Position numbers and translations under genes: made by a program | Notes under the pieces: generated by a model | What the model was told of the DNA's origin: nothing | Database searches by the model: none | What the model saw: only the letters and a program-made list of their open reading frames with translations | In this document: in pieces, positions 23,566 through 50,435 of the stretch | How positions within the stretch are numbered: position 1 is the first letter of the stretch | Layout of the letters: each line of letters opens with the position of its first letter | Virus record (IMG/VR): IMGVR_UViG_3300005841_000040 | Span: 1-52,459 of that record | DNA from: a virus | Direction: 5' to 3' (one strand) | DNA length: 52,459 nt

Positions 23566-23802
23566 ATGACTGACGAAGAACACGCGGGGCGCATCCGCGC
23601 GGCGGAAAAGGCCCTTGCCGAGGCAATCGTCTCGACCTGCAATACGCTAAAAGCCCGGAAAGATGACCTATCGGCGGCGATCGATGCAGCTCGCAGCGCA
23701 GGCCTAAATGTGCGCGCGCATTTTAATCCTATCTGTCCGTGGATCCCCGAGATGGAGCAAGAGATCCAGCCGATCGCCGTTCAACGGGTGATTTCGTTAT
23801 GA
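23566..23802 (+). CDS. Small hypothetical protein before the sugar cassette
   Basis: 78 residues from the ATG at 23566, with AGAGGAAC upstream. The N-terminal two-thirds are helical (HAGRIRAAEKALAEAIVSTC), then a Pro-rich stretch NPICPWIPEMEQE. It overlaps the next gene by ATGA, so it is translated with the sugar-nucleotide enzyme. No family recognised. Confidence 0.55.
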   Translation: MTDEEHAGRIRAAEKALAEAIVSTCNTLKARKDDLSAAIDAARSAGLNVRAHFNPICPWIPEMEQEIQPIAVQRVISL

Positions 23803-25103
23803 CCCGCGCCTTCGTGACCGGCATTACCGGGCAGGACGGCAGCTATTTAGCCGAACTGCTTTTGACGAAAGGCTACGAGGTCCACGGCATGGTACGCCGG
23901 GTGTCGCAGCCCACGTTCGGGAACCTTGCCGCGATCCGCGACCAGATTGTTCTGCACACCGGCGACATGACGGACGGTCCTAGCCTATTCCGCATCCTGC
24001 AGGATCTGGGCCCCGACGAAATCTATAATCTCGCGGCCATGTCTCAGGTGCGAGATTCCTATGATCACCCCGAGGTGACGCAGGATATTAATGCGGGCGG
24101 CCTGCTGCGGATCCTGGAAAGCTGTCGCACGCTCAAGCTCGACGCGAGGATCTATCAGGCCTGCTCAAGCGAGATGTTCGGCCGGGTTCGCGAAACGCCG
24201 CAGACCGAGGCGACGCCCTTCTATCCGCGTTCGCCTTACGGCGCCTCGAAGGTTTCCGCCTTCCACATGGCCAAGGTCTGGCGCGAGGCGTATGGCGCGC
24301 GCGTCTCCTGTGGCATCCTGTTCAACCATGAAAGCCCGCGCCGCGGTGAAGCGTTCCTCAGCCGCAAGGTGTGCAAGGCCGTCGCTGAAATAGCGACCGG
24401 ACAGCGCGACCGTCTGGTCCTCGGCAATCTCTCGGCGAAGCGCGATTGGGGCTATGCTCCCGAATATGTCGAATGGATCTGGCGCATCCTGCAACATCCG
24501 GAACCGGATGATTTCGTGATCGCCACCGGCGAAACCCATTCGGTGGAGGAGTTCGTCGCCGCTGCGTTCGCGCATGCGGGCATCGTCAACTGGCAGGATT
24601 ATGTTGATTACGATCGGGACCTGACGCGCCCGGCCGAGGTCGACCTGCTGAAGGGCGATGCAAGCAAGAGCGCCCGGATCCTGGGCTTCGAGCCGAAGGT
24701 GAAATTCCCCGATCTCGTGAAGATCATGGTCGACGCCGAGATGGCCAAGCTTTCGACGAAGCACAGCGACGAGCGGCGCGATCTCCAATCCTTTCCGGAA
24801 GCAAAGGTCATCACGCTGAAAAAGGACGCCACGATCGGCGGCCATTATCACAAGCTGAAGGACGAGCATTTTATCCTGTCTGAAGGGGCGGGGTATCTGC
24901 GCACCGGCGCTGGGTTGGAACAGTGGCAGGAGCCGATGCAGATCGGCAAGATCTACACGGTGAAGGCTGGCACGCCGCATTGGTTTGACCTGACCTCCGG
25001 TAGCGTGCTTGTCGGGCTCAACAGCAGGCCCTTCGATCCGTCGGATGATTATCGCATTTCTAGCGATGGATATCGCCGCCACGTCGAGCCGGTCGCGGCC
25101 TGA
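23799..25103 (+). CDS. GDP-mannose 4,6-dehydratase-like SDR fused to a cupin
   Basis: 434 residues in two parts. Residues 1-330 are an extended short-chain dehydrogenase of the GDP-mannose dehydratase type: GITGQDG (8-14) binds NADP, the active site shows CSSE (122-125) and the YGASK pair Y147/K151, and ARIYQACSSEMFG and RDWGYAPEYVEW are family landmarks. Residues 335-434 are a cupin with HYHKLKDE and TPHWFDL metal/substrate motifs, like sugar ketoisomerases or epimerases. The likely product is a modified 6-deoxy-hexose nucleotide made in two steps by one polypeptide. Its substrate is inferred from family only. It sits amid head genes and is coupled to the next gene. Confidence 0.85.
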   Translation: MTRAFVTGITGQDGSYLAELLLTKGYEVHGMVRRVSQPTFGNLAAIRDQIVLHTGDMTDGPSLFRILQDLGPDEIYNLAAMSQVRDSYDHPEVTQDINAGGLLRILESCRTLKLDARIYQACSSEMFGRVRETPQTEATPFYPRSPYGASKVSAFHMAKVWREAYGARVSCGILFNHESPRRGEAFLSRKVCKAVAEIATGQRDRLVLGNLSAKRDWGYAPEYVEWIWRILQHPEPDDFVIATGETHSVEEFVAAAFAHAGIVNWQDYVDYDRDLTRPAEVDLLKGDASKSARILGFEPKVKFPDLVKIMVDAEMAKLSTKHSDERRDLQSFPEAKVITLKKDATIGGHYHKLKDEHFILSEGAGYLRTGAGLEQWQEPMQIGKIYTVKAGTPHWFDLTSGSVLVGLNSRPFDPSDDYRISSDGYRRHVEPVAA

Positions 25104-26272
25104 TGCGTTGCCTCGATTTGGGCGCCGGCGATATGTCGCCGCCCGGCTTCATCCCGATGGGCAACGCCCACGGCTCGGCTGTGTATCCGCTCGCTGGCGT
25201 TGCCGATGGCAGCATAGATTGCGTTCGCGCGTCGCACGTGCTCGAGCATTTCGCGTCGGGCGAGATCGCCGACGTTCTCGCGGAGTGGGTGCGAGTACTT
25301 AAACCCGGCGGCGAGCTGCGCATCGCGGTGCCGGATTTCGCGAAGATCGCGGAAGGCTATCTCGCAGGCGCGCGCATGCCGACGGAGGCCTTCATCATGG
25401 GCGGACAGTCCGCGCCTGATGATTTCCATAAGTCTCTGTTCGACGAAGCTCATCTGAAGACGGCGCTCGCCAAGGCCGGCTTGATGCTCATCCGCCGATG
25501 GGAGTCTGAGCTTCAGGACTGCGCCTCGCTGCCGATCTCGCTAAATCTGGCCGGCACGAAGCCGCACCAGGCCGAGATTGGCGTGTCGGCGGTCATGTCG
25601 GTGCCGCGGCTGGGCTTCATGGACAACATGTTTGCTGCGATCGAAGCCCTGCCATCGCTCGGCGTCAAGCTTCGGCGCCACACCGGGGCCTATTGGGGCC
25701 AGTGTGTGGAACGCGTGATGGAGGAAGCGCTGCGCGAGGACGCGCCGGATGCGATCCTGACGCTCGATTATGACTCGGTGTTCACCAAACGCGATGTCTC
25801 GATGCTCATGCAGCTTATGTGCTGCCATCCCGAGGCTGATGCCATCGCCGCCGTGCAGGCGGGGAGGGGAACGGCGAGCGGCCGGCTGTTCACGATCAGG
25901 GGCGACGATGGCGCGAGCCTATCGCAGGTGCCGGCGGAGACATTCGCGGGCGATCTGGCCAAGATCACCACAGCGCATTTCGGACTGACGCTGATCCGCG
26001 CGAACAAGCTGGCGGAGCTTGGCAAGCCATGGTTCGCCGATATCCCGGCACCGGACGGTTCATGGAATGAAGGCCGCACGGACGCCGATATCGCGTTCTG
26101 GCGGAAGTGGGAAAAGGCAGGAAACAGCCTCTACCTCGCCAATCGCGTGCCGATCGGACACCTCGAAATGACGGTGCTCTGGCCGGCTCCGCTCGGGCCT
26201 GAGACCGCACCCATGACGCAGCCTGTCGGCGAGTGGCGGGAGCATGGCCGCCCGTCGGAAGCATGGCGATAG
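25103..26272 (+). CDS. SAM methyltransferase fused to a glycosyltransferase-like domain
   Basis: 389 residues, overlapping the previous stop as TGATG. Residues 1-140 form a class I methyltransferase: LDLGAGD motif I, ASHVLEHF, and VRVLKPGGELRIAVPDF. Residues 150-370 look like a GT-A glycosyltransferase: GVSAVMSVPRLGFMDNM, LTLDYDSVF with a DxD-type D-Y-D, and a substrate-side TTAHFGLTLIRANKL. The pair of activities suits transfer of a sugar and O-methylation of it. Following the sugar-nucleotide enzyme, this suggests glycosylation of a virion or cell-surface target. The acceptor is unknown. Confidence 0.8.
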   Translation: MRCLDLGAGDMSPPGFIPMGNAHGSAVYPLAGVADGSIDCVRASHVLEHFASGEIADVLAEWVRVLKPGGELRIAVPDFAKIAEGYLAGARMPTEAFIMGGQSAPDDFHKSLFDEAHLKTALAKAGLMLIRRWESELQDCASLPISLNLAGTKPHQAEIGVSAVMSVPRLGFMDNMFAAIEALPSLGVKLRRHTGAYWGQCVERVMEEALREDAPDAILTLDYDSVFTKRDVSMLMQLMCCHPEADAIAAVQAGRGTASGRLFTIRGDDGASLSQVPAETFAGDLAKITTAHFGLTLIRANKLAELGKPWFADIPAPDGSWNEGRTDADIAFWRKWEKAGNSLYLANRVPIGHLEMTVLWPAPLGPETAPMTQPVGEWREHGRPSEAWR

Positions 26273-29555: not shown

Positions 29556-29899
29556 AGCAGCAACTTATCGACATCGTTTGCGGCCTAGTCGCCGCAGGCG
29601 TCGAGGGAGGATGCTGGGATCGCGTCACGAAATGGAACCTGAAACGGGCCCGGGCAATGTACTCTTACTGGGCGCGCAACGGGCCGCCGCCATATCTCGC
29701 GCTGCAGGCCCTCGGCCGCGCGGTTGGCGTTGATTGGAAGCTGGAGACTGAAGAGCCGGAAATTTTGTCAACACGTTCCATGACTGATCCTGCTCAGCCC
29801 GTTCCTACCATAGCAGAGGTTGCCGCCGCCGCTCCAAAGCCCGGCGCTGATCTCACGGAAACCAGCGCCGCGATCCTGCGGCAGATGGGAATCAGCTAG
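29510..29899 (+). CDS. Tail chaperone extension in the -1 frame (probable programmed frameshift)
   Basis: The frame that is one base back from the chaperone frame is open from about 29505 through the short-form stop to TAG at 29897-29899. It reads LEQQLIDIVCGLVAAGVEGG, then CWDRVTKWNLKRARAMYSYW, clearly coding, with no usable start until an ATG at 29657 in the middle of this conserved stretch. A G5 run followed by AA at 29507-29513 (GCG GGG GAA in the chaperone frame) is the best slip site visible, though not a perfect X XXY YYZ heptamer. Lambda G-GT gives the precedent. The extended protein would number about 227 residues. Confidence 0.65.
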   Translation, partial: GSEGSCQAAQGSGSLEQQLIDIVCGLVAAGVEGGCWDRVTKWNLKRARAMYSYWARNGPPPYLALQALGRAVGVDWKLETEEPEILSTRSMTDPAQPVPTIAEVAAAAPKPGADLTETSAAILRQMGIS

Positions 29900-30222
29900 C
29901 CATATTTGGCGTAGAACGTCGCATCATTGGACGTGAACAGCAGGATCGCGTCGATCAGCGACAGCAGAAACGGAATTAAGGTCCAGCAAAAGACCAGATA
30001 AAGGACGCCCGCGCCGGTGCGGCCGAGATAAAACTTATGCATGCCGATTGCACCGAAGAACAGCGCAAGCACTGCCGCCACGGTCCGGTTGCGTGACGTG
30101 CTGGCCACCGCTCCAGGTTGAGGCGCTCCACAATCCGGACATTGCTGCGCTGACTGATGCAACGCCTTTCCGCATCCGGGACAATACTTCGTGAGCGCCG
30201 GGTCGATATTCGCGGTCGCCAT
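29896..30222 (-). CDS. Zinc-ribbon TM2 membrane protein, leftward accessory gene
   Basis: 108 residues. The N-terminus has CPGCGK ... CPDCGAP, a zinc ribbon, then two membrane segments in the TM2 arrangement: TVAAVLALFFGAIGMHKFYL and GAGVLYLVFCWTLIPFLLSL with the family's GxxGxHxFYLG signature, and a short DAILLFT tail. TM2 proteins are small inner-membrane proteins of mostly unknown role. Reading against the tail operon, with its own ribosome site (GAGGATCTGAGA), it looks like a lysogen-expressed moron, possibly for superinfection exclusion. Its stop shares CTAG with the chaperone extension. Confidence 0.85.
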   Translation of the reverse strand: MATANIDPALTKYCPGCGKALHQSAQQCPDCGAPQPGAVASTSRNRTVAAVLALFFGAIGMHKFYLGRTGAGVLYLVFCWTLIPFLLSLIDAILLFTSNDATFYAKYG

Positions 30223-30249
30223 TCTCAGATCCTCGCTTTGGCAACTCCG

Positions 30250-30277
30250 ACATTACCGAGGCGCCGCTCATTCGCAA
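30250..30277 (-). promoter_or_regulatory. Candidate promoter of the TM2 gene
   Basis: On the minus strand TTGCGA (30272-30277) and TAATGT (30250-30255) are spaced by 16 bases, upstream of the TM2 start. The -35 matches 4 of 6 and the -10 3 of 6 consensus bases. A promoter is expected here because the gene faces away from the late operon. Confidence 0.35.
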
Positions 30278-30327
30278 CTATGATGATCGGACTTTCGTGA
30301 GCGACTGTCCCGAATTTGGAGGTGATG

Positions 30328-33237
30328 ATGGCCAATAATATTGCGGTCTCTATCACCGCCGATGTGGTCGATCTTCAGGCGAAGCGGGCAATCATGTCCG
30401 CGGAACTGAAGGCCGCGACCAAGGACCTAAACGCGTTTGCGAAAGAGGCGGCCAGCACCGGCGGGACCGATCAGCTCCGCGCCGGCATGCTCGCGAGCGC
30501 CGAAGCCGCCGAGAAGGCGCGCGCCAAAATCGCGCTCGTCACCCAAGAGATCAAGGAACTAAATCACGTCCCCGAACCGCCGAGGCATGGTTTTGAAGCG
30601 CTTACTGCCACTGTTAGTCAGACGGGAATTCACCTCAAAGAAACCGTTGGCCAGTTCGGTGAATTTCGCGCCGCACTTGCTGAGGTCGCGGAAGTCCTCA
30701 TAGTCGCCTTCGCGGTCGAAAGGATCGCCGAGTGGGCCGAGCACATGGGCGAGGCCGCCGAGAAGACTAAGCACATGGCCGAGACCTTCGGGATGACGGT
30801 CCCTGAGGTTCAAGGTCTGTCAGCAGTCGCCAAAGAAACTGGCATGGACGTGGATGCACTCGCCAAAGGCATGGGCATCCTCGATAAAAACACCGTCACT
30901 GCAGGCGAAGGCAATGGTAAGATCGCGGCGGCGCTGAAAGCGGTTGGCATCGCGGCCAATGACGGGCGGTCGCAGATGGAGCGGATGCTCGTCATCGCCG
31001 ACCGGTTCAAGGACATGGACGACGGGCCAAAGAAGGTCGCGCTCGCCATGGAACTCTTCGGCAAATCCGGCAAGGAACTGATCCCGGTCCTAAATATGGG
31101 CGCGGAAGGCCTGCAAGAGATGGACCGCGTCACCCAGGAATATGGTGCCGGTGCCCTGTTTGCGAGCGCCGCCAATAAGGAGCTGCGCGACTGGCTCGAT
31201 CAGGTGAATGCGCGAGGCATGGCGCTCGCTGATGCCACCGACACGACCAAGGTTGCGATGCAAGGCCTCGGAAACGTCATGACCGATGCCTTCGCGCCGA
31301 TCCTGACCTCGCTCACCGATGGCCTGAATTCCATGATCAAGGCCTTCATCGACAGCTACCGCGAAGGGGGCATTGTCGCCGTGGTCATGGGCACCATCAC
31401 CACTGCGCTTGAGGCAGTGTGGGAAGTCGTGAAGGCGCTCGGCCAAATCTTCTACGAAGTGTTCAGCGCGATCGTGGAATTGGTCGGCGACGTCGTGGCG
31501 GACATCATGGATGCCTTCGGGATCAAGACGCCGCAGGCCATGCATGCTGCCGAAGTCGCCTGGAATGTCTTCAAGGATGCCGTCGTCATCGCGAAGGATA
31601 TCATCCTCGTTGCTATCGACGCCATCATCGGCATCGTCGAGCAGCTTGTCGGCAATCTGGTCACGTTCGGTAAGGTCGCGTGGGACGCTTTCTCCCTGAA
31701 CTGGGGAGCGATCGAGGGCGACTGGGCCGCGGGCATGTCACGCGTTGAAAAGCAAATCGAAGCGTCGTCTGCCCGGATCAAAGGCCACGTTGCCGAGATG
31801 CATGCAGCGCTCACCGCAGCTGCGCACGGAGAGGCGCTTCCGGGCAAGCCCGCGGAAACGCACGAGCCGAAGGGCGTGAAGGATTTCGACCCCGATCTAG
31901 CCGGCGCGGGCAAGAAAGGACCGAAAACCACCATCGCCCAGAAGCTCGAAGAGGAGCTGGAAGCGAAGAAGACCGCTTGGGCGATGGAGCAGGACGCTCA
32001 GGGCACCTATCAGCAATATTCGCTGCAGTCCGAGGCTGATTTCTGGCAACAGGCACTCAAGCGGACCGATCTCAGTGCCAAGGACAAGCTGGAGATCGAG
32101 CGGAAGTATCTCGCCGCGCGGCAGGCGCTGATCAAGGAAAAGCAGCAGCAGGAGACCGATGACGCCAAGCAGAGCGAGGCTCTCGCGATCGAGGCGGCCA
32201 AGACGCAAAATGACCTCGCCCGGCTCGGCATCCAGGCCAAGCTTAATGCGATAGAGGAAGCGCGGCGGCTCGGTACGATTTCGGCCAACGAGGCGGTCCA
32301 GCAGCATCGGGACCTGAACGCGCAGCTATATCAGCTCGACGTCGATCTCGAGAACAAGGAACGTGCGATCAAGCTCAAGGGCTTGCAGGACCAACGCGCG
32401 ATCCTCGGTCAGAACTCTGAATATTATCGCAAGATTGACCAGCAGATCGAGCTGCTCGAAAAGCAGCACCAAGATAAGATCACCGTGCTCAACGCGCAGG
32501 GTAATCAGAAGCGGCTTCAGGATGATCGAAAGGTTTACGAGCAGACGCATAAGTTGCAGCTCGATGCCATCCACAGCCTTAGCCAGTCCTGGAGCAGCAC
32601 GCTGGGGCAGATGCTGACCCTGCAGACATCGTTCGCAAACGGCGTGAAATCGATGTGGCAGGGGCTGGTGGGAGTGATCGGCGACGCGCTCGGCCACATG
32701 ATCGAGAAGTGGCTCGAAAAGCAGCTCACAGCGCTTATTCTAGGCCGTACGCAGCAGGCGGTGACCGGGGTCGCACAGGTGACCTCAAATGCCGCAGTGG
32801 CGGCCTCAGGGGCCTATGCGGCGACCGCTGTGATCCCGATCATCGGGCCAGCGCTGGCACCCGCTGCTGCTGCTACGGCGCTTGCCGGTGCCATGTCGTT
32901 CGCGCCGCTCGCATCGGCCGAGGGCGGTGACTGGCAAGTGCGTGGCGGCCTCTATAATTTGCACCCGGATGAAATGGTGCTGCCTGCACATCTCGCCCGG
33001 CCGATGCGGTCCATGATCGAAGGCGGCGCGAACGACAATACGTCCTCAACCTCTTTCGGGCGGAGTGCTGCAGCGTCAGGTTCGCGCGGCGGCGATGTCC
33101 ACAACCATAACTACAATATCAAGGCCCTGGACGGTCACAGCGTCAAACGCGTCCTGATGAACAATCTGGGCCATTTCGCCACAGCATCGAAGGAAGCACG
33201 CCGCCAAGGCCACTTCGCGGGGATGCGGCGGGCCTAA
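30328..33237 (+). CDS. Tape measure protein
   Basis: 969 residues from the ATG with TGGAGGTG properly spaced. The N-terminus is helical with ADVVDLQAKRAIMSAELKAA. The middle has long hydrophobic segments (VVMGTITTALEAVWEVVKAL and KDIILVAIDAIIGIVEQLV) typical of tape measures that cross the membrane at infection. Residues about 540-760 are coiled coil (EEELEAKKTAWAMEQDA, LNAQLYQLDVDLENKERAIK). The C-terminus is Gly/Ala-rich with HNHNYNIKALDG. At 969 residues and about 1.5 A per residue, tail length would be about 145 nm; this is a rule-of-thumb estimate. Confidence 0.9.
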   Translation: MANNIAVSITADVVDLQAKRAIMSAELKAATKDLNAFAKEAASTGGTDQLRAGMLASAEAAEKARAKIALVTQEIKELNHVPEPPRHGFEALTATVSQTGIHLKETVGQFGEFRAALAEVAEVLIVAFAVERIAEWAEHMGEAAEKTKHMAETFGMTVPEVQGLSAVAKETGMDVDALAKGMGILDKNTVTAGEGNGKIAAALKAVGIAANDGRSQMERMLVIADRFKDMDDGPKKVALAMELFGKSGKELIPVLNMGAEGLQEMDRVTQEYGAGALFASAANKELRDWLDQVNARGMALADATDTTKVAMQGLGNVMTDAFAPILTSLTDGLNSMIKAFIDSYREGGIVAVVMGTITTALEAVWEVVKALGQIFYEVFSAIVELVGDVVADIMDAFGIKTPQAMHAAEVAWNVFKDAVVIAKDIILVAIDAIIGIVEQLVGNLVTFGKVAWDAFSLNWGAIEGDWAAGMSRVEKQIEASSARIKGHVAEMHAALTAAAHGEALPGKPAETHEPKGVKDFDPDLAGAGKKGPKTTIAQKLEEELEAKKTAWAMEQDAQGTYQQYSLQSEADFWQQALKRTDLSAKDKLEIERKYLAARQALIKEKQQQETDDAKQSEALAIEAAKTQNDLARLGIQAKLNAIEEARRLGTISANEAVQQHRDLNAQLYQLDVDLENKERAIKLKGLQDQRAILGQNSEYYRKIDQQIELLEKQHQDKITVLNAQGNQKRLQDDRKVYEQTHKLQLDAIHSLSQSWSSTLGQMLTLQTSFANGVKSMWQGLVGVIGDALGHMIEKWLEKQLTALILGRTQQAVTGVAQVTSNAAVAASGAYAATAVIPIIGPALAPAAAATALAGAMSFAPLASAEGGDWQVRGGLYNLHPDEMVLPAHLARPMRSMIEGGANDNTSSTSFGRSAAASGSRGGDVHNHNYNIKALDGHSVKRVLMNNLGHFATASKEARRQGHFAGMRRA

Positions 33238-34331
33238 TGCTGCGAGCGGTAAGGGGATGGGACTGGATTCCTCAGGGGTTGTCCGGCAGCGAAAACGCAC
33301 GGTTGTTGGCTGCTGACAGGTTTTACAGTTCGGCCAGCAACGGCTACTTTGGGAACTTCAACTCGGTCGGTCGATTTGGCTTTGGTGGTTGCCTCAACTG
33401 GGCCCTTGCGCCGGGAAATCTCGATGCCAACCAGATCGTAGGGCTCACGGGCTCAAGCCGCGCGACCAACACAATGGGTTGCGCGGTTTTCGTGGATCAA
33501 GCGAATAATGCCTATGATTGGGTAACATTCTTCGATGCTGTAACCGGCGCTCCCCAGTTGAGCTTCTATTTCGCTGAATATGGAGTGATCAAAGTCTATC
33601 GGGGATATCCCTACAGCGGGACGCTGCTCGTCGCATCGCAGCCGGGTTCTTTTCAGGAAGACGAATGGTTCTACTTCGAGGCGAAGGCGACTATCGATGC
33701 AACGGCTGGCGCAGTCGAATGCCGGGTGAACACAGCTACCGTCATCAGCCTGGTCGCGGCAAACACCATGGCGACCTTGAATGCCTTCGCGGACTCGTAC
33801 GGCTTCGGCGTAGCGCGCGGGCCAACCTTCGGAAATGCAGCCTTCGTCAAATTCGACGACTTCTACTTCAACGACGATACCGGCTCCTACAACAACGGTT
33901 TTCTGGGCAATTGCCGCGTGATGACCCAGAAGGTCGCTGGCAATAGCACGCCGCAAGATTTCACCATCGGCGGGTCGTCTCCGGCAGCGACGGCATGGCA
34001 GTCTCTCCTGAATGCCAATCTCGACGACACCAAATACCTTTTCGACAACACTGCCGGCCATAAATCGCTGTTCACGATCGAGGCCATCATCAACGCCCCA
34101 ATGGTGTTCGGCATTCAGATTTCCGGCGCCTATCGCCAGGATGACGCAACCCAGCGCACGGCGCGCAACGTGATTAAATCGGGCTCGACGACGGCCGAAG
34201 GCGGCGATCAGCTGACCAACCAGACCTACACGATGTATAAGGATATTTGGGAGATCAATCCGGCGACCAGCGTTGGGTTTACCGGTGCGGAACTCAATGC
34301 GTTGCTGATCGGGCCTAAAGAGCAGGCCTAA
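33237..34331 (+). CDS. Structural tail protein with lectin-like beta fold
   Basis: 364 residues, beginning in a TAATG overlap with the tape measure. The first 210 residues are beta-rich with aromatic repeats (FGNFNSVGRFGFGGCLNW, WFYFEAKATIDATAGAVECR, AFVKFDDFYFND), the pattern of concanavalin-like jelly-roll modules. The remainder reads NLDDTKYLFDNTAGHKSLFT and TMYKDIWEINPATSV. It may be a distal-tail or side-fibre protein binding surface sugar. Similar proteins occur at this place in other GTA-like-tail phages. Confidence 0.65.
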   Translation: MLRAVRGWDWIPQGLSGSENARLLAADRFYSSASNGYFGNFNSVGRFGFGGCLNWALAPGNLDANQIVGLTGSSRATNTMGCAVFVDQANNAYDWVTFFDAVTGAPQLSFYFAEYGVIKVYRGYPYSGTLLVASQPGSFQEDEWFYFEAKATIDATAGAVECRVNTATVISLVAANTMATLNAFADSYGFGVARGPTFGNAAFVKFDDFYFNDDTGSYNNGFLGNCRVMTQKVAGNSTPQDFTIGGSSPAATAWQSLLNANLDDTKYLFDNTAGHKSLFTIEAIINAPMVFGIQISGAYRQDDATQRTARNVIKSGSTTAEGGDQLTNQTYTMYKDIWEINPATSVGFTGAELNALLIGPKEQA

Positions 34332-35434
34332 TGAGCGAGCTTCGTGTAACCGAGATTATCTCGGAATCGTTGTCGGCCGGCTATTCCAATGTTCTCGCGC
34401 CAGTCGTCCTGAACGAGCCGCTCATCGGCGGCTACAGCACCGTGCGTGCCTCGCTCGCGATCAATGAACCTCTCATCGGCGGCTACAGCAAGATCCGAGC
34501 GTCGCTGCTGATCGTCGAGTCCCTTTTCCCCGTTCCCCCAGAGGAAATCATGGTCACAGCCATCCTGCCCGGCTTCGGCAACTCGCTGGCCGATCCGAGC
34601 ATTCCGGAAGCCGCCAACCCGGCAACGGGCGCGACGCCGGGCCTCGCCTTCTCGGTCCACATGAAGCCGCGCTTCAACACGCGGGTTTCGACCTCGGTCA
34701 ATTTCAAGTCGATCCGCACGCCGCTCGCTCCGAACCCGAGCTGGGAATTTGAACTGCCCTATGAGTTCCTGTCGGATCGCGATCAGGCAAACTCATCACT
34801 GCGCACGCTGATGGGCTTCTACTGCGCCCGGATGGGTAGCGCGAACCCGTTTCTCGTGAAGGTCCCGGAATTCTATCTCTCCACCGATGCGACGATCGGC
34901 ACCGCCGATGGCGGCCGGCTGCAATGGGACTTCCTGCGCTGGGTCGGGAGCGAATTTTCGGAGCCGGTCGGGCAGGTCGACATCGCGAACACCATTCACG
35001 TCTATCTGACGCTCAACGAGACCGTCAGCGTGCCGGGATCTGGCCCCTATACCGTCACCGTGGCGCACGCCGCCGCCTTCGTGGAGGACAAGGGTGTAAG
35101 CATCGGCGGAACTCCGCTGACGAAGGTCGCATCCTCGCCGGCGGCCATGCAATATTCGGTCGCGGCGGGCGTCTACACATTCAACTCGGCGCAGCATGGC
35201 GCTTCGGCCGTTATCGACTATCGCTATCTAGTCGACCCGAGCGCCTATTCCGTCACGCTTCCGAACAAGATCGTCTTTGGAACCGCGCCCACGCCGGCAG
35301 GCGCCCGGATCAGCTGGGACGGGCAATATTTCTTCACGTGCTATTTCGACGAAGACATGGCGGACTTCGAGAAGTTCGCGGACAAGCTCTGGACGCTCCA
35401 GCAGTTGACCTTTCACAGCGAACTGCTTGCATGA
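34331..35434 (+). CDS. DUF2460 tail-tip protein with repeat-bearing N-terminal extension
   Basis: 367 residues if translated from the TAATG at 34331. From residue 74 on it is a DUF2460-like protein (FNTRVSTSVNFKSIRTPLAP, WEFELPYEFLSDRDQANS, GFYCARMGSANPFLVK) as in GTA tail modules; it builds the tail tip hub or distal tail. The first 70 residues contain near-identical repeats NEPLIGGYSTVRASL and NEPLIGGYSKIRASL, part of a V-x-E-x-L pattern usual in separate short phage proteins. An ATG at 34550 has AGAGGA correctly placed, so two forms are possible. An Ig-like module (35044-35231) is inserted in the middle. Confidence 0.8.
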   Translation: MSELRVTEIISESLSAGYSNVLAPVVLNEPLIGGYSTVRASLAINEPLIGGYSKIRASLLIVESLFPVPPEEIMVTAILPGFGNSLADPSIPEAANPATGATPGLAFSVHMKPRFNTRVSTSVNFKSIRTPLAPNPSWEFELPYEFLSDRDQANSSLRTLMGFYCARMGSANPFLVKVPEFYLSTDATIGTADGGRLQWDFLRWVGSEFSEPVGQVDIANTIHVYLTLNETVSVPGSGPYTVTVAHAAAFVEDKGVSIGGTPLTKVASSPAAMQYSVAAGVYTFNSAQHGASAVIDYRYLVDPSAYSVTLPNKIVFGTAPTPAGARISWDGQYFFTCYFDEDMADFEKFADKLWTLQQLTFHSELLA

Positions 35435-36342
35435 GGCCGATCACCGCGCAGCCGGGGCACGTCGAAGCCGATGTGGTGGACGCGCTGGCGTCAAAGAACT
35501 TCGTCTATACCGATTGCTTCACGATCACGCCGCTGATCGGAAGCCCGCTCTATTACACGAACGCCGCCCGCGACGTGACCGTCGTGCCGCTGGGCGGCCT
35601 GATCCGGCAGACCTATCTTGGCGGTTCCGTACTCGTGCAGGGGCTCCGGTCGCACATCAAGATCGGGATCGAGGTCGACGAGCAGCAGCTCGTGCTCGAT
35701 TATACCAACGAGCTCGACTTTCAGGCGCGGCTTCCCTGGCCGAAAGCATTGCTGCTCGGATATCTGGATGGGGCATCGATCCGGCGGGACCGCTTCATCG
35801 CCGGTGCGTGGGGCGATGATCTCTCCTATCCCTGGCTTGGCGGCATGCCGATGTTCGACGGCATAGTCGCGGGGCTCACGCAGGTCGGGCGGCAGTCGGC
35901 GACCCTCAGCGTCAAATCCGCCATCAATGTGCTCGACACCGAGATGCCGCGCGATCTCTACCGGCCGCGCTGCAAGAATGTGTGGGGCGATCTCAATTGC
36001 GGTGTCGATCAAAGCGCGTTCGCATCGATCGTCACCATTAGCTCTGGATCGCCCACCACGACCTTCCTGCCGTGGACGGGAGCCGATGCAAATTATGTCG
36101 AGGGGAAGGTCCACATCGACAATGGCGATTCGGTGACTCGGGTGCGCAAGATCCAGCGCGCCGACACGACAGGCCTGTGGTTGGTATACCCGCTCGATTT
36201 TACGCCGACGATCGGAACGACCTTCACGGCGTTCCCCGGCTGCCCGGGCACGATGACGCGCTGCCAGGATTTTCACGGCTCATCATGGCTCACCCGGTTC
36301 AAGGGGTTTCCCTACATCCCCGTGGTAGAGTCGAGCTTCTAG
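35431..36342 (+). CDS. DUF2163 tail-tip protein
   Basis: 303 residues, overlapping by ATGA. It matches the DUF2163 / phage-tip architecture: FVYTDCFTITPLIGSPLYYT, VQGLRSHIKIGIEVDEQQLV, GMPMFDGIVAGLTQVGRQSA, and the conserved RPRCKNVWGDLNCGVD and CPGTMTRCQDF cysteine blocks. In rcGTA this is the gp13-type hub piece that binds the iron-sulphur or metal cluster of the tip; here four cysteines (in CKN, NCG, CPG, RCQ) could play that part. Between DUF2460 and the NlpC/P60-like peptidase, the order is standard. Confidence 0.85.
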   Translation: MRPITAQPGHVEADVVDALASKNFVYTDCFTITPLIGSPLYYTNAARDVTVVPLGGLIRQTYLGGSVLVQGLRSHIKIGIEVDEQQLVLDYTNELDFQARLPWPKALLLGYLDGASIRRDRFIAGAWGDDLSYPWLGGMPMFDGIVAGLTQVGRQSATLSVKSAINVLDTEMPRDLYRPRCKNVWGDLNCGVDQSAFASIVTISSGSPTTTFLPWTGADANYVEGKVHIDNGDSVTRVRKIQRADTTGLWLVYPLDFTPTIGTTFTAFPGCPGTMTRCQDFHGSSWLTRFKGFPYIPVVESSF

Positions 36343-36828
36343 ATGTCTGATATCGTGCAAGAATGCGCCGAGCGCGCCTCGGCGGTCGCGGAGGCGCGGA
36401 CATGGGTCGGCACGCCCTATTGCCATGCTGCACGGGTGAAGGGCGCCGCAGTCGATTGCGCGCAGATCCTGGCGGGGGTGTTCGCCGGCGCCGGTCTCAT
36501 TCCTGACGTCACCATCGCGCCCTATCCGCCAGATTGGCACCTGCACCGCGGTGAAGAACGCTATCTCGCGCACCTCGAATTGATGTTCGGCCGCGTCGAT
36601 GATGATGAACGACCGCTCTGCGAACGCGGTGCCGATTTCCGCGCCGAGTCCGGCGACATTCTCATGTGGCGCTGGGGCAGGACCTTCTCGCACAGCGCGA
36701 TCGTCACCGAATGGCCGAATGTCATTCATGCCTTCGCGAGCGAGAGGTTCGTCGTCGAGTGCGATGTTCAGGGAACGCCGATGAGAACGCACCCTATGCG
36801 CGTCTATTCCTACTGGAGCGGCAAATGA
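36343..36828 (+). CDS. NlpC/P60-like cell-wall peptidase of the tail tip
   Basis: 161 residues starting directly after the DUF2163 stop. AEARTWVGTPYCHAARVKGA, then the catalytic Cys of VDCAQILAGVF and the His of TFSHSAIVTE define a C40-type peptidase like GTA gp14 and lambda gpK. It would cleave peptidoglycan during DNA entry. The length is typical. It overlaps the next gene by ATGA. Confidence 0.85.
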   Translation: MSDIVQECAERASAVAEARTWVGTPYCHAARVKGAAVDCAQILAGVFAGAGLIPDVTIAPYPPDWHLHRGEERYLAHLELMFGRVDDDERPLCERGADFRAESGDILMWRWGRTFSHSAIVTEWPNVIHAFASERFVVECDVQGTPMRTHPMRVYSYWSGK

Positions 36829-37163
36829 GCTTTTGCCCCAGCTGTGGCTTCAATCTGGATCGCGACGAAGTTCTCCAGCTCGACGGCTTCGTGCTCGATC
36901 CGCGCGGGATGATTGCTTTCCAAGGATCGCCGGTCCTTATGACGCATCACGAGGCGATGGCCATGCACACCGTAGCATCCGCAAACGGGCGACCGGTGAA
37001 AACAGAGACAATCTCGCAGCGGATATCTGACGGAGAAGACCCTCACTGCGCCTCGGTATTCATCCATCGTGCTCGCCGCCGTCTGCTCGCCGCGGGCGTC
37101 CCTAATCCTATCCAGACGGCTTTTCGTCGCGGATATCGTTGGAGCGTGAAGTGGGTTTCCTAG
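36825..37163 (+). CDS. Zinc-ribbon winged-helix (OmpR-type) DNA-binding protein
   Basis: 112 residues from the ATGA-overlap start. It begins MSFCPSCGFNLDRDEVLQLD, a single CxxC with further possible ligands later, then a winged helix of the transcriptional-regulator C-terminal type: [66 protein letters not shown]. The last block is the wing/GRGYR signature of OmpR/PhoB DNA-binding domains. No receiver domain is present. A DNA-binding regulator inside the tail-tip genes is unusual; it may act on the phage's own late promoters or on host genes. Confidence 0.78.
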   Translation: MSFCPSCGFNLDRDEVLQLDGFVLDPRGMIAFQGSPVLMTHHEAMAMHTVASANGRPVKTETISQRISDGEDPHCASVFIHRARRRLLAAGVPNPIQTAFRRGYRWSVKWVS

Positions 37164-39661
37164 GTCTTGGCGGCCACAAGACCAAGCCTGAATATACCGG
37201 CCTCGCCACACAGACTTCGACCTCAAACATTGCGATCGCCATCGTCCTCGGCGAGAACAGGGGCTCGCCCAACATCATCTGGCAGGGCGATTTTCAAGCC
37301 CACAAGCATAGTGCCGGCGGGAAGGGAGGCGGCGGGAAGGGTGGATCGACCTACACCTATTCGGGCAGCTTCATTCAGGCGCTCGGCTGGGGCCCGATCC
37401 ACGGAATAGGCATGGTCTATAAGGACAAGGAGCTAACCACGCTCGCGAAGTTGGGGTTCACCCTCTTCACCGGTACGACGCCGCAATCGCCTTGGGGCTA
37501 TCTCACGACCGCTCATCCGAGCGAGGCGCTCGGCTATGCCGGCATCGCGTACCTGGCGGTTGCGAACTACGATCTCGGCAGTTCCAATGCGCTGTCGCAG
37601 CACAGCTACGAGATTCAGGGGCAGCTCTGGAACACCGCGTCTTGGACGGGCGGCAACGACGCGGACATCGGTCTCGGCATTCAAGCCTATATTTCCGATC
37701 CGACCTGGGGCGTTGGCTTCGACACGTCGTTTCTGAACACGAACAGCCTGCTTTCGACGCCCGCTGCCACAACGACCGGCGACAATGCGTTCCAGACTTA
37801 TTGCCAGGCGATGGGATGGGGGTTCTCGCCGATATTGGTCGACCAGGTGGCGGCCTCCGACACCATCAAGCGCTGGTGCGACCTGTTCAATGCTGCCCCC
37901 ATCTGGACGGGCTATAATCTCAAGTTCCTGCCTTATTGCACGGAGACGATCACTGCCAACGGGGTGACCTATCTGCCAAGCTTTCCGGTGGCCTACGTCA
38001 TCACCGACGATGATTTCCTCGGTGACGCGAGCGCGGATCCGATCAGTTTCGATCGGGCAGATCCTGCCGATTGCAAGAACCAGTTTCAGATCACGATCTC
38101 GAACAAGGCGAACCAGTATAACGACCTCCCCGTCATGTGGGAGGATCTGGCGCTGATCGACCAATATGGCGTCAAGCCCGATAGCGGCTTCGAGGCCAAG
38201 GAGATTACCTCGGAGACGATGGCGCAGCAGATGGTTGCGCTCTATGGCCAGCGCAGCACCTATGTCCGCAATCGCTTCGCGCTGAACCTTGGCGTCAATT
38301 TCATGCGCCTCGAGCCCGGCGATATCATCCAGGCGGTCGACCCGGTGCTCGGCACGCTGACGCTCATGGTCGATGAAATCACCGAGCAGGACGACGACAG
38401 CTTCGACATCGTCGCGTTCGAATGGAACGACAGCGTCACGCTGGCACCGACCATCCCGACGCAATCGGTCGGCGGTACCAACGTCGACACCGGAGTCGCG
38501 GCAAGCGCGGTCAACACGCCGATCCTGTTCGAACCGCCGTCGACACTCGCAGGCACGCCGCAGGTCTGGGCGGCCGTCTCCGGCGGCAATGGCACCACGG
38601 CCGACCCGCTGTGGGGCGGCTGCAATGTGTGGATCTCGACGGACAATGCGACCTACACGCAGATCGGCACGATCAATGAGCCGGCGCGGATGGGCGTCAC
38701 GACTGCTACGCTCGCCGCCTATGGGGGCAGCAATCCCGATGCGGGCCACACGCTATCGGCCAACTTGGCGGAAAGCGCCGGTGCCCTCATCAGCGCGAGT
38801 TCAGCGGCCGACGCCGCGGCCGGCGCGAACCTCTGCTATGTCGGCGGCGAATTCCTGTCACCGCAGACGGTCACGCCGACCAGCACATATGCGTTCAACT
38901 GCACCAATCTTTATCGCGCGCTCTATGGTTCGACAGCCGGGACGCACGCTTCGGGAACGCCGATCGCCCGGCTGGACGGCAACATCTTCAAGTACGATTT
39001 GCCCGCAGCCTATATCGGCGTCACACTCTACCTGAAGTTCCAGAGCTTCAACGTCTACGGCCTCGGTGTGCAGGATCTTTCAACCTGCACGGCTTACACG
39101 ATCACCACGACCGGCGCGGGCTTCGGGACCGGCACCGCCGGCGCGCCGGCGACGCCGACTGGGCTCAGCGCGACCGCAGGTTATGCACAGGTGGCACTCA
39201 GCTGGACGGCAAATGCCGCGAACGACAATGTCACCGCCTATGAGGTTTGGCGCGCGAACGGGACGGGAGCATCGTTCGGCTCGGCGAGCAAGATCGCGAC
39301 CGTCGCGGGGCTTGCATATACCGACACCGGGCTCGCGGCGACGACCGGCTACACATATTTCCTGAAGGCGGTAAACGTGGTCGGTGCGTCTAGCGCCACG
39401 AGCGGCGTGAATGCGACGACGAACAGCGTCGGCTTCGGCTCCTCGAATTGGGCGTTAAACGAACTTCCGTCTGGAACGATCAACGGCAGCAACACGTCAT
39501 TTTCGATCGCCCACACGCCAACGTCGGGCATCCAGCTCTACCTAAACGGCTCCCTGCAGCAGCCAGGCTCCGGCAAGGATTACACGCTGACGGGAACGAC
39601 GATCACCATGGCGGTTGCGCCCCCTAGCGGCGACATCCTGCTCGCTTCGTACCAATATTGA
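37151..39661 (+). CDS. Tail tip/receptor-binding protein with FN3 domain
   Basis: 836 residues from the GTG at 37151, with GGAG six bases before; a TTG at 37139 is the alternative. The N-terminal 450 residues have tip-protein character ([70 protein letters not shown]). A Fibronectin III domain spans about residues 672-760 ([20 protein letters not shown]). The C-terminal 80 residues form a small beta domain ([19 protein letters not shown]). This is the lambda gpJ/GTA gp15 position; it probably contacts the host receptor. Confidence 0.85.
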
Positions 39662-39671
39662 GAGGTCTCCG

Positions 39672-40661
39672 ATGAAGGCTTTGCGTTTCCTACTTCCGCT
39701 GCTGGCGCTCGCCGCCGGGCCGCTTTTAGCTCAAAGCAAGCTCAATCTCGGCACGCAGGTGAAGGGGACGCTCCCGGTCGCCAACGGGGGCACCGGCGCA
39801 ACCAGCCTGACCGCGCACGGCGTCGTGCTCGGCAACGGAACGTCGGCGGCAAACGTCTCCTCGGCGGGGACCAGCGGTCAACCCTTTCTGTCCGGTGGCG
39901 CGAGCGCGGATGGTGCCTATGGGGCACTTAATCTCTCCACCTCGGCTGTCACGGGCAATCTCAGTACCTCGCACTTGAACAGCGGCTCCAGCGCCTCGTC
40001 ATCGACCTTCTGGCGGGGCGACGGGACGTGGGCGACGCCGCCGAGCAGCGGCGGTGGCGGCGGCAGCACCTATACCGTGCCATCGCTGGCATCATTCACA
40101 TGGGTGAACCAGAGCACGTCAACGGCGCTTCAGTTGACCAGCAGCGGCCCGATTTTGATGACGACGCCCAGCACCACCTTGAACTGGCGTTTGTTGAAGA
40201 TCTCCATTCCTTCGACGCCCTATAGGGTGCGTGCGTTATTGCGAGGCGTAGCCACCAGCGAAGCATCGACCACTGCCTGGACGAAAGGGCTGTTCTTTTA
40301 CGACGGGACCAAGCTCGCCGGCATTGAGGCTTGCATCGGCTGTAATGGAACGGGCGGACAGCTGTTACGGGCCGAGAAGATTAATAGCGTGACCAGTGAC
40401 AATAGTACTGTGACCAGCAGCGCATCTTGGGGTGCCGGCACGGCGCGCAATGAGCTATTCTGGGCTCAGATACGCGATGATGGAACGACGTTGTATTTCG
40501 ATATGAGCCTGGACGGGGACAACTGGGTCAATCTGACAAGTTTCACGCGGGCATCGTTCATCACGCCGACCGATATCGGCTGGGGTGGCGCGTCGAACAA
40601 TAACGGCATTTACGTAAGCCTGCTGGCTTGGACGGTCGATTCCAACGCCAACCTGAACTAG
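39672..40661 (+). CDS. Tail fibre-like protein with a signal peptide
   Basis: 329 residues from the ATG at 39672, with AGAGGTCTCC upstream. It starts with [20 protein letters not shown], a cleavable Sec signal, then the fibre-type linker [17 protein letters not shown] and [12 protein letters not shown], and a C-terminal beta domain ([40 protein letters not shown]). GGTGAT and DGTW motifs are typical of phage tail fibres. A signal peptide on a fibre is odd: the protein might be made in the periplasm. Its stop shares CTAG with the acyltransferase. Confidence 0.75.
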
Positions 40662-41740
40662 ACGCCAGCGGTCGCGGCCTCAGGCTTCAAGATTGTCTCG
40701 CTTGCTTGCGATGGGCGTCTAGACTTTATCCATCCGGTAAGAGCGGCTCTGACGGGCTCATCGATATAGCGGAGCATGAGATAAGAAATTGTGGCGACCG
40801 CCAACAGCGTGCCTGCAACGCAAGACGCGTCGCCATATCCTCGCGATCTCACAAACATCACGACGGCGATCATCACCGGGTAATGGACGCAATAGATCGG
40901 ATACGACATGCGCCCGAGAATGGCGCAAGCCTTCTCCATAAACTTCGGCACCTCATAGGACGCTCCGAGCCATACGATCATCGGCCCGATCGAAAGTGCG
41001 AAAATAAGGTCGCGCCCCGCGCGCCATTTGCCGGGATCATGCCAGAAACAGAAGATCAAGATCGGCCAGCCGAGCAGCGCCAGGAACCCTTTACCAGGTG
41101 CCGGCGTGCTGCATGATCTCGCAATCAATTGGCCTATGATGAAGGCATAGAGCGTCCGGAAGGCTCCGAAGTAACCGAAGTGCCAAGCCGGTCCCAGGTT
41201 CAACGTCCCGGCGATCACCGTGCCGATGGCGACGAACAATGCCGATGCGATAGCCGCTACAAATAGGATCTTGTCGCGGCTCCGGAAGAGCACGAGACAG
41301 AACACCAGGCTCGCGCCGATCTCGAACAGAAGTGACCAGGAGGGGGCGTTGAGCGGAAACAGATCGCGTCCGGAAGGAAGTGCCGGGAGCATCAAGATGG
41401 CCATACCGGAGGCATCAGCCAGTTGGCCGGATGACAGAACATGAGGAATCCACGGCGGAAGTAAGATCATCGTCTGCACCAAGCCGAGAATCGCTCCGAT
41501 AAGGTACATCGGGTAGAGACGGATAAGACGCGTCTGCAGGAATTTGATAGTGCCGAGACCCGCTCTAAGGCTTTCCTCGTACGATCTGGTCAAGACGAAA
41601 CCGCTGAGACCAAAGAAGAAATCTACGGCCAAATATCCAGAATTGACTGCGTTGATGTCGAAGCTTCGCAGATGGAAGAGAACGACAGCGATCGCTCCCA
41701 GGCCGCGTAAGCCGTCTAGACCATGATTTCTGTCGTTCAT
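40658..41740 (-). CDS. Acyltransferase 3 family protein, likely O-antigen or exopolysaccharide O-acylase
   Basis: 360 residues, read leftward. It begins [20 protein letters not shown], with the conserved R and H of the acyltransferase-3 family (OafA, OatA, Shigella phage Oac), continues [20 protein letters not shown] and [19 protein letters not shown], and has about ten membrane segments. It would transfer acetyl or another acyl group to a surface glycan. Phage members change the host's receptor and block superinfection. The gene is set against the operon and lacks an obvious ribosome site, so its promoter should lie in the 113-base gap to its right. Confidence 0.9.
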
Positions 41741-41853
41741 GTTGTTGATGACTTACCCATAACTCCCTCAGTGACAAGGGCGCTGTAAGCTTAACGCGCC
41801 CCAAAACAGAACACAGTCCCAGCATCTGTTTGAACAGCCAAGGACCCAAAAAG

Positions 41854-42414
41854 ATGACCCTTCAATACGGCACGACGCTGCGCAACGCCCGGCAGGATCA
41901 GAATGAAACCACGATCGGCACCGCCCCCGTCATCCAGTTCCGCACCGGTGCGCCGCCAGCCAATTGCGGATCGGCCGATAGCGGCACGCTCATCGGTTCG
42001 ATGACGCTTCCTTCCGACTGGATGGCCAATGCGTCCGGCGGTAGCAAATCCAAATCCGGTACATGGTCGATGACCACCTCCGCCGCCGGTCGCATCGCTC
42101 ACGCGCGGCTCAAGGACAGCGGCCTGACCACCTGTCATATGCAATGGATCGTCGCCATGCCGTGGCAGGCTAGCTATGCCTATTCGACCGGCGACTATGT
42201 CACCAATGATAGCGGCAAGCTCTATAAGGCAACCGCTGGCGGCACGTCGGCCAGTTCAGGCGGTCCGACCGGTACTGGAGCCAGTATCACGGACAATGGT
42301 GTCACCTGGGCCTATCAGCAGGCCGCCGCGGACATGACGATCGACAATGCCGTCGTCGTGTCTGGACAGACGGTCAACGTCAGCACCTTCCAAACCACTG
42401 ACGGTAATCCATAG
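41854..42414 (+). CDS. Structural tail protein with carbohydrate-binding-like module
   Basis: 186 residues from the ATG at 41854, with AAGGA about ten bases upstream. The N-terminal half (TLQYGTTLRNARQDQNETTI, IQFRTGAPPANCGSADSGTL) is a phage structural signature. A module WQASYAYSTGDYVTNDSGKL then YKATAGGTSASSGGPTGTG resembles the short chitin-/carbohydrate-binding modules of phage fibres, with a conserved W-A-Y end (NGVTWAYQQ). Probably part of the baseplate or fibre. Confidence 0.7.
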   Translation: MTLQYGTTLRNARQDQNETTIGTAPVIQFRTGAPPANCGSADSGTLIGSMTLPSDWMANASGGSKSKSGTWSMTTSAAGRIAHARLKDSGLTTCHMQWIVAMPWQASYAYSTGDYVTNDSGKLYKATAGGTSASSGGPTGTGASITDNGVTWAYQQAAADMTIDNAVVVSGQTVNVSTFQTTDGNP

Positions 42415-48670: not shown

Positions 48671-49135
48671 TTATGCAGAGACGCTTTTCTTGCGCCGCCC
48701 GGAAATCGAACCGTCAACCTTCCATTTCTTACGATAATGTGCGGCGCCGGTGCCTGCCACGGCCAACCGTGCCCGCGCAGCTTCAGCCAGAAAACCTGAG
48801 CGATTCCCTGTTATCCGGTCGATCGCGGCGAGCAAACCTTCGTCGAGCGTGATATTTACACGGATTGCACGGCCGGGACGCTCGGCGCGGACGAGTATGC
48901 GAGCAATCTCATCCACCTCGGGATCATGCTCGATGGCATCCAGCTCCGAAGGAGCTGCGATCTGATCGCCATGCTCCACTGACACGAGCAAATGGCCATC
49001 AAGGGCCTGTTCAGCATTGCGTGCAGCTTCCTGTAGGGTTGCGCCAGCAGAGGTGCAGCCCGGAAGATCGGGGAAGAATACGCTGTAACCGTCGGCGGCA
49101 CGCTCGACGATCGCAGGATAGAACACGGTGGCCAT
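48671..49135 (-). CDS. hicB: HicB antitoxin
   Basis: 154 residues. The N-terminal partial RNase-H-like fold reads FYPAIVERAADGYSVFFPDL then PGCTSAGATLQEAARNAEQA, typical of HicB. The C-terminus, RVNITLDEGLLAAIDRITGN then RSGFLAEAARARLAV, is a ribbon-helix-helix that binds the operator. It lies 35 bases after hicA, and would mask HicA's active site. Confidence 0.9.
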   Translation of the reverse strand: MATVFYPAIVERAADGYSVFFPDLPGCTSAGATLQEAARNAEQALDGHLLVSVEHGDQIAAPSELDAIEHDPEVDEIARILVRAERPGRAIRVNITLDEGLLAAIDRITGNRSGFLAEAARARLAVAGTGAAHYRKKWKVDGSISGRRKKSVSA

Positions 49136-49170: not shown

Positions 49171-49359
49171 TTATCTGAGCCTCACCCCGCTTTGTTTCTC
49201 GATACTTTTCAGGGTCCCTATCGCCATGTCCGCCTTTGGATGCGGGACGGTGACGGTGCCGGGCTTCGTGGGGTGGCGATATTGCTTATGGCTGCCGGAT
49301 TGACGAACCTCGAACCATCCGTCTTTTTCGATCTTTTTGATGACTTCGCTGCTACGCAT
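49171..49359 (-). CDS. hicA: HicA mRNA interferase toxin
   Basis: 62 residues from the ATG at 49359 (an upstream ATG at 49392 would start inside the operator). MRSSEVIKKIEKDGWFEVRQ then SGSHKQYRHPTKPGTVTVPH contains the GSHxxYRHP catalytic-His motif of HicA, whose dsRNA-binding-like fold cleaves mRNA. It precedes hicB, with which it forms a type II pair. Confidence 0.9.
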   Translation of the reverse strand: MRSSEVIKKIEKDGWFEVRQSGSHKQYRHPTKPGTVTVPHPKADMAIGTLKSIEKQSGVRLR

Positions 49360-49375
49360 TCCATTCGCTCCCTCT

Positions 49376-49446
49376 GTGTGTATGATATACACACTTTATG
49401 CCGATGGTGCAAGGAAAAAAGTACACACTACATACACATTTATGTG
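49376..49446 (-). promoter_or_regulatory. hicAB promoter with operator palindromes
   Basis: On the minus strand TTGCAC (49407-49412) and TATATC (49384-49389) are 17 bases apart. The -10 lies inside a perfect palindrome GTGTGTATGATATACACAC (49376-49394; 8-base arms, GAT centre). A second inverted repeat CACAT-TT-ATGTG lies at 49435-49446 and TACACA half-sites lie between. HicB's ribbon-helix-helix would repress here. Confidence 0.7.
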
Positions 49447-49592: not shown

Positions 49593-50435
49593 ATGGAGTC
49601 GAGAAATCTGTTTGACGAGCTGGTGCGCCCGGTCGCGCCGGCAGCGGGTTATATTGGTGGCAAGCGGCGACTGGCGCGCGCCATCACGCGCGCGATCGAT
49701 CGCTGTCCGCACGATCTCTACGCGGAAGTGTTCGTGGGCATGGGCGGTATCTTTCTTCGCCGCGGCCGCAAGCCACGCGTGGAAGTGATCAACGACTGGT
49801 CCGAGGACGTTTCCACCTTCTTCCGCATCCTCCAGCGGCATTATGTCGCGTTCCTGGACATGCTGCGGTTTCAGCTGACGACGCGCGCCGGTTTCGAGCG
49901 CCTCCTTCGCGTCGATCCCTCCACCCAAACCGATTTGGAGCGCGCCGCGCGCTTCCTCTATCTCCAGCGCCTCGCCTTCGGCGGCAAGGTGGCCGGCCGC
50001 AACTTCGGCGTCGATCCCGGATCGCCCGGCTCATTCGACGTCACCAAATTGGGGCCGCTCCTCGAGGCGATCCACGAGCGGCTCGCGGCCGTGACAATCG
50101 AGCGCTTGCCTTGGTCTGACTTCCTGTCCCGCTATGATCGCGACGAAGCGTTGTTCTATCTCGATCCGCCCTATTGGGGCAGCGAGGGTGATTATGGCGC
50201 TGATCTGTTCGATCGGACGCAGTTCAAGGCTATGGCCGAGCAGCTGGGCACGATTGCCGGCAGATTCCTGCTGAGCATCAATGATGTTCCCGAGATCCGC
50301 GCGATCTTCGCGGGCTTCTCGATGATAGAGCGGGGTTTGCTCTATACCATCGGTGGCGGCGGTAATGAGGTCGATGCCAAGGAACTGGTGATCAGCAACC
50401 TCGATCAGGCGCGCCTGGAGCAAATCTTCGCCTAG
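49593..50435 (+). CDS. Dam-like (D12 class) N6-adenine DNA methyltransferase
   Basis: 280 residues. YIGGKRRLARA (20-30), motif I AEVFVGMGGIFL (44-55) and motif IV DPPYWG (191-196) show the alpha-class Dam/DpnM arrangement with motif I first. RNDWSEDVSTFFR-like helices and GFSMIERGLLYT complete it. It would methylate adenine, possibly in GATC-like sites, to protect phage DNA or regulate transcription. It stands alone, between a leftward toxin locus and a leftward operon, and its stop shares CTAG with the next gene. Confidence 0.92.
   Translation: MESRNLFDELVRPVAPAAGYIGGKRRLARAITRAIDRCPHDLYAEVFVGMGGIFLRRGRKPRVEVINDWSEDVSTFFRILQRHYVAFLDMLRFQLTTRAGFERLLRVDPSTQTDLERAARFLYLQRLAFGGKVAGRNFGVDPGSPGSFDVTKLGPLLEAIHERLAAVTIERLPWSDFLSRYDRDEALFYLDPPYWGSEGDYGADLFDRTQFKAMAEQLGTIAGRFLLSINDVPEIRAIFAGFSMIERGLLYTIGGGGNEVDAKELVISNLDQARLEQIFA

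Follow-up and report, generated by a model that had tools for sequence, protein, structure and literature searches.

Why does a phage carry a gene for what looks like a transcription factor among the genes for its tail? The question is raised by IMG/VR virus record IMGVR_UViG_3300005841_000040, the whole of which, 52,459 bases, is the window referred to below. An open reading frame (ORF) at 36825-37163 on the plus strand, running from ATG to TAG, lies between the genes for a tail peptidase and a tail-tip protein and encodes 112 amino acids. The ORF, Pfam, PHROG and AlphaFold2 together indicate a CPxCG cysteine knuckle followed by a solitary winged-helix domain of the OmpR/PhoB type. We suggest, with a probability of roughly 0.7, that the product is a phage-encoded transcription factor without a receiver domain, carried as a one-gene cassette in the tail operon, co-expressed with it and acting on DNA.

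The gene and its place in the tail operon

The frame is not a chance one, because a homologue 82% identical occupies the corresponding position in a second phage and the differences between the two are concentrated at third codon positions (16, 11 and 38 at positions 1, 2 and 3, or 38 of 65 at the third), giving a dN of 0.130, a dS of 0.633 and a dN/dS of 0.21. The gene is under purifying selection. Stretches of the window that were aligned to G004 are mostly 77-98% identical.

The ATG of the regulator gene and the stop codon of the upstream gene (36343-36828, plus strand) share the sequence ATGA, and a ribosome-binding-like GGAG (36815-36818, plus strand) lies within the upstream gene, 6 nt 5' of the ATG. 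The upstream product is read as an NlpC/P60-like tail peptidase from its phage homologues, annotated NlpC/P60, endopeptidase or C40; the protein itself has no Pfam match. At the other end, the GTG (37151) of the downstream gene (37151-39661, plus strand) lies inside the end of the regulator gene, with a 13-nt overlap, and is again preceded by GGAG-N6. The downstream product matches Phage-tail_3 and Rcc01698_C in Pfam, and its counterparts in Brevundimonas phages are annotated as tip attachment protein. On the 5' side, the order of genes is DUF2460, a baseplate-hub-like protein (PF09931/PF09356) and the NlpC/P60-type peptidase, so that the locus has what we take to be the gene-transfer-agent order gp12-gp13-gp14-gp15 with one additional gene between gp14 and gp15. 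The original prediction, made from the sequence alone, had placed the ORF here and coupled it to the peptidase and tip genes, and both overlaps bear this out. Such overlaps would imply translation with the tail genes, and hence late synthesis. No consensus sigma-70 site was found close upstream on the plus strand, which fits expression from the tail message, the consensus being weakly informative for a GC-rich phage with a probable alphaproteobacterial host.

The regulator gene is an inserted cassette, because none of the phages compared that have the same peptidase and tip genes carries it between them. In 10 of 10 such records, several of which, from Acinetobacter prophages, nearly duplicate one another, -1 to 7 bases separate the two genes when unaligned ends are allowed for, and in the Polewnik annotation the genes overlap by one base. 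A search of plasmids gave no near match to positions 30000-42000 of the window.

Predicted fold and cysteine knuckle

The protein is one of a family of 28 distinct members, gathered by viral-contig protein and DNA-pattern searches, one bacterial-contig scan and genome profile searches. Pfam Trans_reg_C (PF00486) matches the window protein with an E-value of 1.2e-4 and 22.5 bits (cut-off 26.2); it matches 26 of the 28 members at E<=0.01, and all five homologues scanned one by one exceed the cut-off. Other helix-turn-helix (HTH) Pfam families match 1-2 of the 28. The best PHROG matches, phrog_31800 (transcriptional regulator, E 1e-5) and phrog_731 (unknown, E 4.2e-5), have profiles of 152 and 227 positions and cover only the winged-helix region.

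An AlphaFold2 model built from a 23-row family alignment (pLDDT 89.3, pTM 0.83) predicts strands at residues 17-19, 22-25, 29-32 and 35-37, helices at 41-52, 60-67 and 74-89, and strands at 96-99 and 103-106. This is the four-strand platform, three helices and C-terminal wing hairpin of an OmpR/PhoB winged helix, spanning residues 15-109 (36867-37151). In VIA-align, the model matches the DNA-binding domain of SaeR with Z 13.3 (1.9 Å, 93 residues aligned) and DNA-bound PhoB with Z 11.8, and its top Foldseek match is DNA-bound CosR (E 1.2e-5). The effector domains of SaeR, PhoB, CpxR and VanR (PF00486) share its fold over residues 15-109, along with conserved helix arginines and the wing. The window protein differs from these response regulators in having no receiver: with 112 residues in all and about 14 before the winged helix, it has an N-terminal CPxCG knuckle in the receiver's place. 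The OmpR-type winged helix that had been claimed is borne out by Trans_reg_C and the model, and the lack of a receiver by the length of the protein.

The predicted recognition helix (residues 74-89; 37044-37091) has a net charge of +4, and the predicted pI of the whole protein is 9.1. Within the helix R82 is conserved in 23 of 28 members and R84 in 26 of 28; alignment with PhoB places them opposite the arginines of its recognition helix. The original prediction named a lack of conservation in the wing as grounds for abandoning it; the wing proves to be conserved. In the predicted wing hairpin (residues 96-106; 37110-37142), G103 is present in 28 of 28 members, an aromatic residue at 104 (Y104 in the window) in 27 and W106 in 26. 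Positions 81 and 100, the latter at the tip of the wing, are variable, and the pattern appears to be that of a conserved frame with changing specificity. DNA binding of the OmpR/PhoB type is well supported by the predicted fold and this conservation.

The knuckle itself, CPSCG at residues 4-8 (36834-36848), has a counterpart near the N terminus of every family member (CxxCG, 28/28), a constancy that arises partly by construction, most members having been retrieved with patterns that required CPxCG. The profile-found and aligned L029-L033 likewise have CxxCG, and that profile includes CxxCG. A second CxxC occurs in 0 of 28, and the other alignment columns hold Cys or His in at most 15 of 28. 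Because a zinc ribbon needs two ligand pairs in one chain and one is present, the earlier name is not earned, and only its CPxCG half stands. It is possible that the knuckles of two chains jointly form one site.

Relatives and their places in phage genomes

The genome searches yielded lower bounds, the 10-12 best candidates being scored in most genomes. By profile, at least 6 of 397 genomes were positive in the family of the Sphingopyxis genome that carries a member, at least 1 of 385 in its class (the Sphingopyxis genome itself) and at least 8 of 398 in its phylum. Among the last, the Sphingopyxis genome and L161 are members, and in each of the remaining six positives the open frame is at least 230 long, like those of response regulators. 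L161, a 29th member found after the alignment, is not counted among the 28. Sequences without CxxCG were excluded (L010, L011, L012, L026-L028 and the RDJL protein, L007); L010, L011, L012 and L028 were read as ordinary response regulators, and L026 and L027 duplicate L010 and L011. Three of 20 pattern matches (L039, L044, L047) were judged to be chance. Some members are extended at the C terminus, L063 (813-1322, minus strand) and L048 (3478-4140, plus strand) by additional HTH-like segments and L052 (48-482, plus strand) by a GRPRK tail that is presumably AT-hook-like. No paper on the CPxCG family was found in open PMC text.

Judged from our own gene calls and a reading of the neighbourhoods, 13 of the 28 members lie in late head, tail or lysis regions and 14 in early regions; one is unclear. 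The late copies occupy several sites, identified by family matches of the adjoining genes: between portal-like and major head protein genes (L003), between TerL and the head-tail connector (L062, L058), before TerL (L041), before the tape-measure gene (L048) or after it (L031, L033, with P2 gpU next in L031). L032 follows a tail protein read as gpI, and the tip gene, by Pfam, adjoins the copies in the window and L002. For L063, L004 and L008 the neighbourhood is the sole ground for a late placement; L008 is on the strand opposite to the surrounding head genes. Related P2-like prophages differ: G356 has the order tape-measure gene, regulator gene, gpU; in G146 the tape-measure gene abuts gpU (ATGA), and the copy sits after a gpI-like gene instead. 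Four of the early copies (L037, L051, L059, L094) are about 0.4 to 3.2 kb from a CI/Cro-type repressor, and HTH_3 matches all four of these repressors.

The differing gene neighbours suggest that the copies moved independently. The tree of the 28 members is too poorly resolved to carry this argument or to give a number of moves: of its 25 inner branches 3 are starred, and these force just one early/late change. Over the whole tree, the early/late label requires 7 changes, against a mean of 9.3 in shuffles, 52-53 of 500 of which were equally low. With relatives in differing places across many phages, the gene resembles a mobile module for gene control more than a part of the tail. A DNA methylase gene lies directly 3' of three of the early copies (2459-4053 in L017, 12941-13970 in L042 and 1492-3188 in L029), and a functional pairing of the two kinds of gene is possible.

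Solitary OmpR-type domains are also found outside the family. The 'CtrA' of Roseobacter phages RDJL Phi 1/2, of which the RDJL Phi 2 protein is the best match in BFVD, is 31% identical to the window protein and is likewise a small solitary OmpR-type domain from an alphaproteobacterial phage; it differs in having no CPxCG, in its place near an exonuclease gene rather than among tail genes and in its extra C-terminal part. Polewnik has a winged-helix-like protein, also without the knuckle, adjoining a helicase gene.

Proposed role and alternatives

A single function is well known for OmpR-type domains that stand alone: they bind DNA near promoters and there contact or block RNA polymerase. We infer such DNA binding, late timing and a regulatory role for the window protein. 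The cassette has been inserted into the tail operon, with the peptidase gene on one side and the tip gene on the other, and its start/stop coupling and Shine-Dalgarno-like sites would let it be translated from the tail message, so that the protein appears late. Using helix 74-89 and the wing, it would then bind a direct-repeat operator in a promoter of the phage or of the host, and repress or activate that promoter. As there is no receiver, phosphorylation of one of the protein's own aspartates could not serve as a switch, and the time of its action would have to follow from the timing and amount of its synthesis; in relatives near CI/Cro-type genes, expression would be early. That the regulator times late expression, as originally proposed, is possible.

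Several observations weigh against this reading. The window protein taken alone scores under the Pfam cut-off for Trans_reg_C, and the sigma-70 scan says little for a phage of this kind. No candidate operator emerged: tandem 8-mers spaced 10-12 nt apart were not found beyond shuffled expectation in the 21 intergenic gaps of the window (best p 0.055, uncorrected). Boxes of the form TTAA-N7-TTAA, which we take to be the CtrA box sequence, numbered 0 in the window at one mismatch or fewer, against 1.86 expected. With 0 boxes, a CtrA-like regulator acting at phage CtrA boxes was rejected; such sites have been described in alphaproteobacterial phages for host CtrA (PMC9437464). A defence function was likewise set aside, there being no PADLOC match.

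Among the alternatives, the gene could encode a regulator of lysis-lysogeny or superinfection with a role like that of P22 immI, placed in the late operon and expressed from its own message, for example in a lysogen. The proximity of several family members to CI/Cro-like genes speaks for this. The immI region differs in comprising several genes, whose proteins presumably have folds unrelated to that of the window protein. The likeness is one of position, immI lying between genes 16 and 9 inside the late operon, so that the regulatory genes mnt, arc and ant stand between structural genes (PMC8022706). Given this precedent and the 13 late members at several gene pairs, the earlier remark that regulators rarely sit here needs qualifying. 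The two overlaps and the lack of a promoter-like site close upstream point to co-expression with the tail genes, and we consider a regulator with its own message unlikely.

Rather less probable is a late-operon regulator like P2 Ogr, a small cysteine-bearing activator made from the tail operon that would turn on late promoters. P2 Ogr and P4 Delta are likewise small cysteine-containing regulators of tail-operon phages, and the small size, the knuckle and the tail-operon place of the gene in three P2-like prophages fit such a role. Ogr and Delta have a four-cysteine zinc site, and they belong to a different family, PF04606, which gives no match to the window protein at E<=0.1. In prophage G356 a genuine Ogr/Delta gene (PF04606, 54.6 bits) follows the CPxCG gene at a distance of about 3.3 kb downstream; with both genes present, replacement of Ogr is ruled out there, and G146 and G398 possess Ogr elsewhere. 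Least probable is a DNA-binding protein that is a minor part of the virion or is ejected from it, synthesised along with the tail and passed on together with the genome. Only the position among tail genes speaks for it; the 14 early members, the late copies at unrelated gene pairs (TerL/portal, portal/capsid, tape-measure/gpU, after gpI-like) and the ten compared phages that all lack the gene at this site argue against it, and the suggestion of a packaged or injected protein thus found no support.

Elsewhere in the window, a GDP-mannose 4,6-dehydratase gene (23799-25103) and a methyltransferase-like gene (25103-26272), on the plus strand between head and tail genes, place sugar-nucleotide genes among structural ones (23799-26272). 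Directly after the tail genes, on the opposite strand, lies a membrane acyltransferase (Acyl_transf_3; 40658-41740, minus strand), which may modify host surface polysaccharide. A TM2-domain membrane protein gene (29896-30108, minus strand) lies just 5' of the tape-measure gene, opposite to it. In the right part are a HicB-like antitoxin (48671-49135) and a HicA toxin (49171-49392) on the minus strand, with Pfam scores of 84.8 and 81.4 bits. DNA methylase genes are of the C-5 cytosine (8801-10906) and D12-type adenine (49593-50435) kinds, plus strand.

A receiver-less transcription factor of the kind proposed would belong to a small regulator family of constant architecture, found at early or late positions in unrelated phages, including some in Sphingomonadaceae. 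A tentative, and on balance improbable, extension is that this is a plug-in family whose OmpR-type domain has its dimerisation switched not by a phosphorylated receiver but by a zinc or redox site that two CPxCG knuckles share. Phages would slot its members behind an early repressor or into a late operon, and so time the same kind of switch. The family lets one ask whether the role of a phage regulator is set by where in the genome its gene lies, and it raises the question of whether one cysteine knuckle on its own can do the work of a receiver domain.
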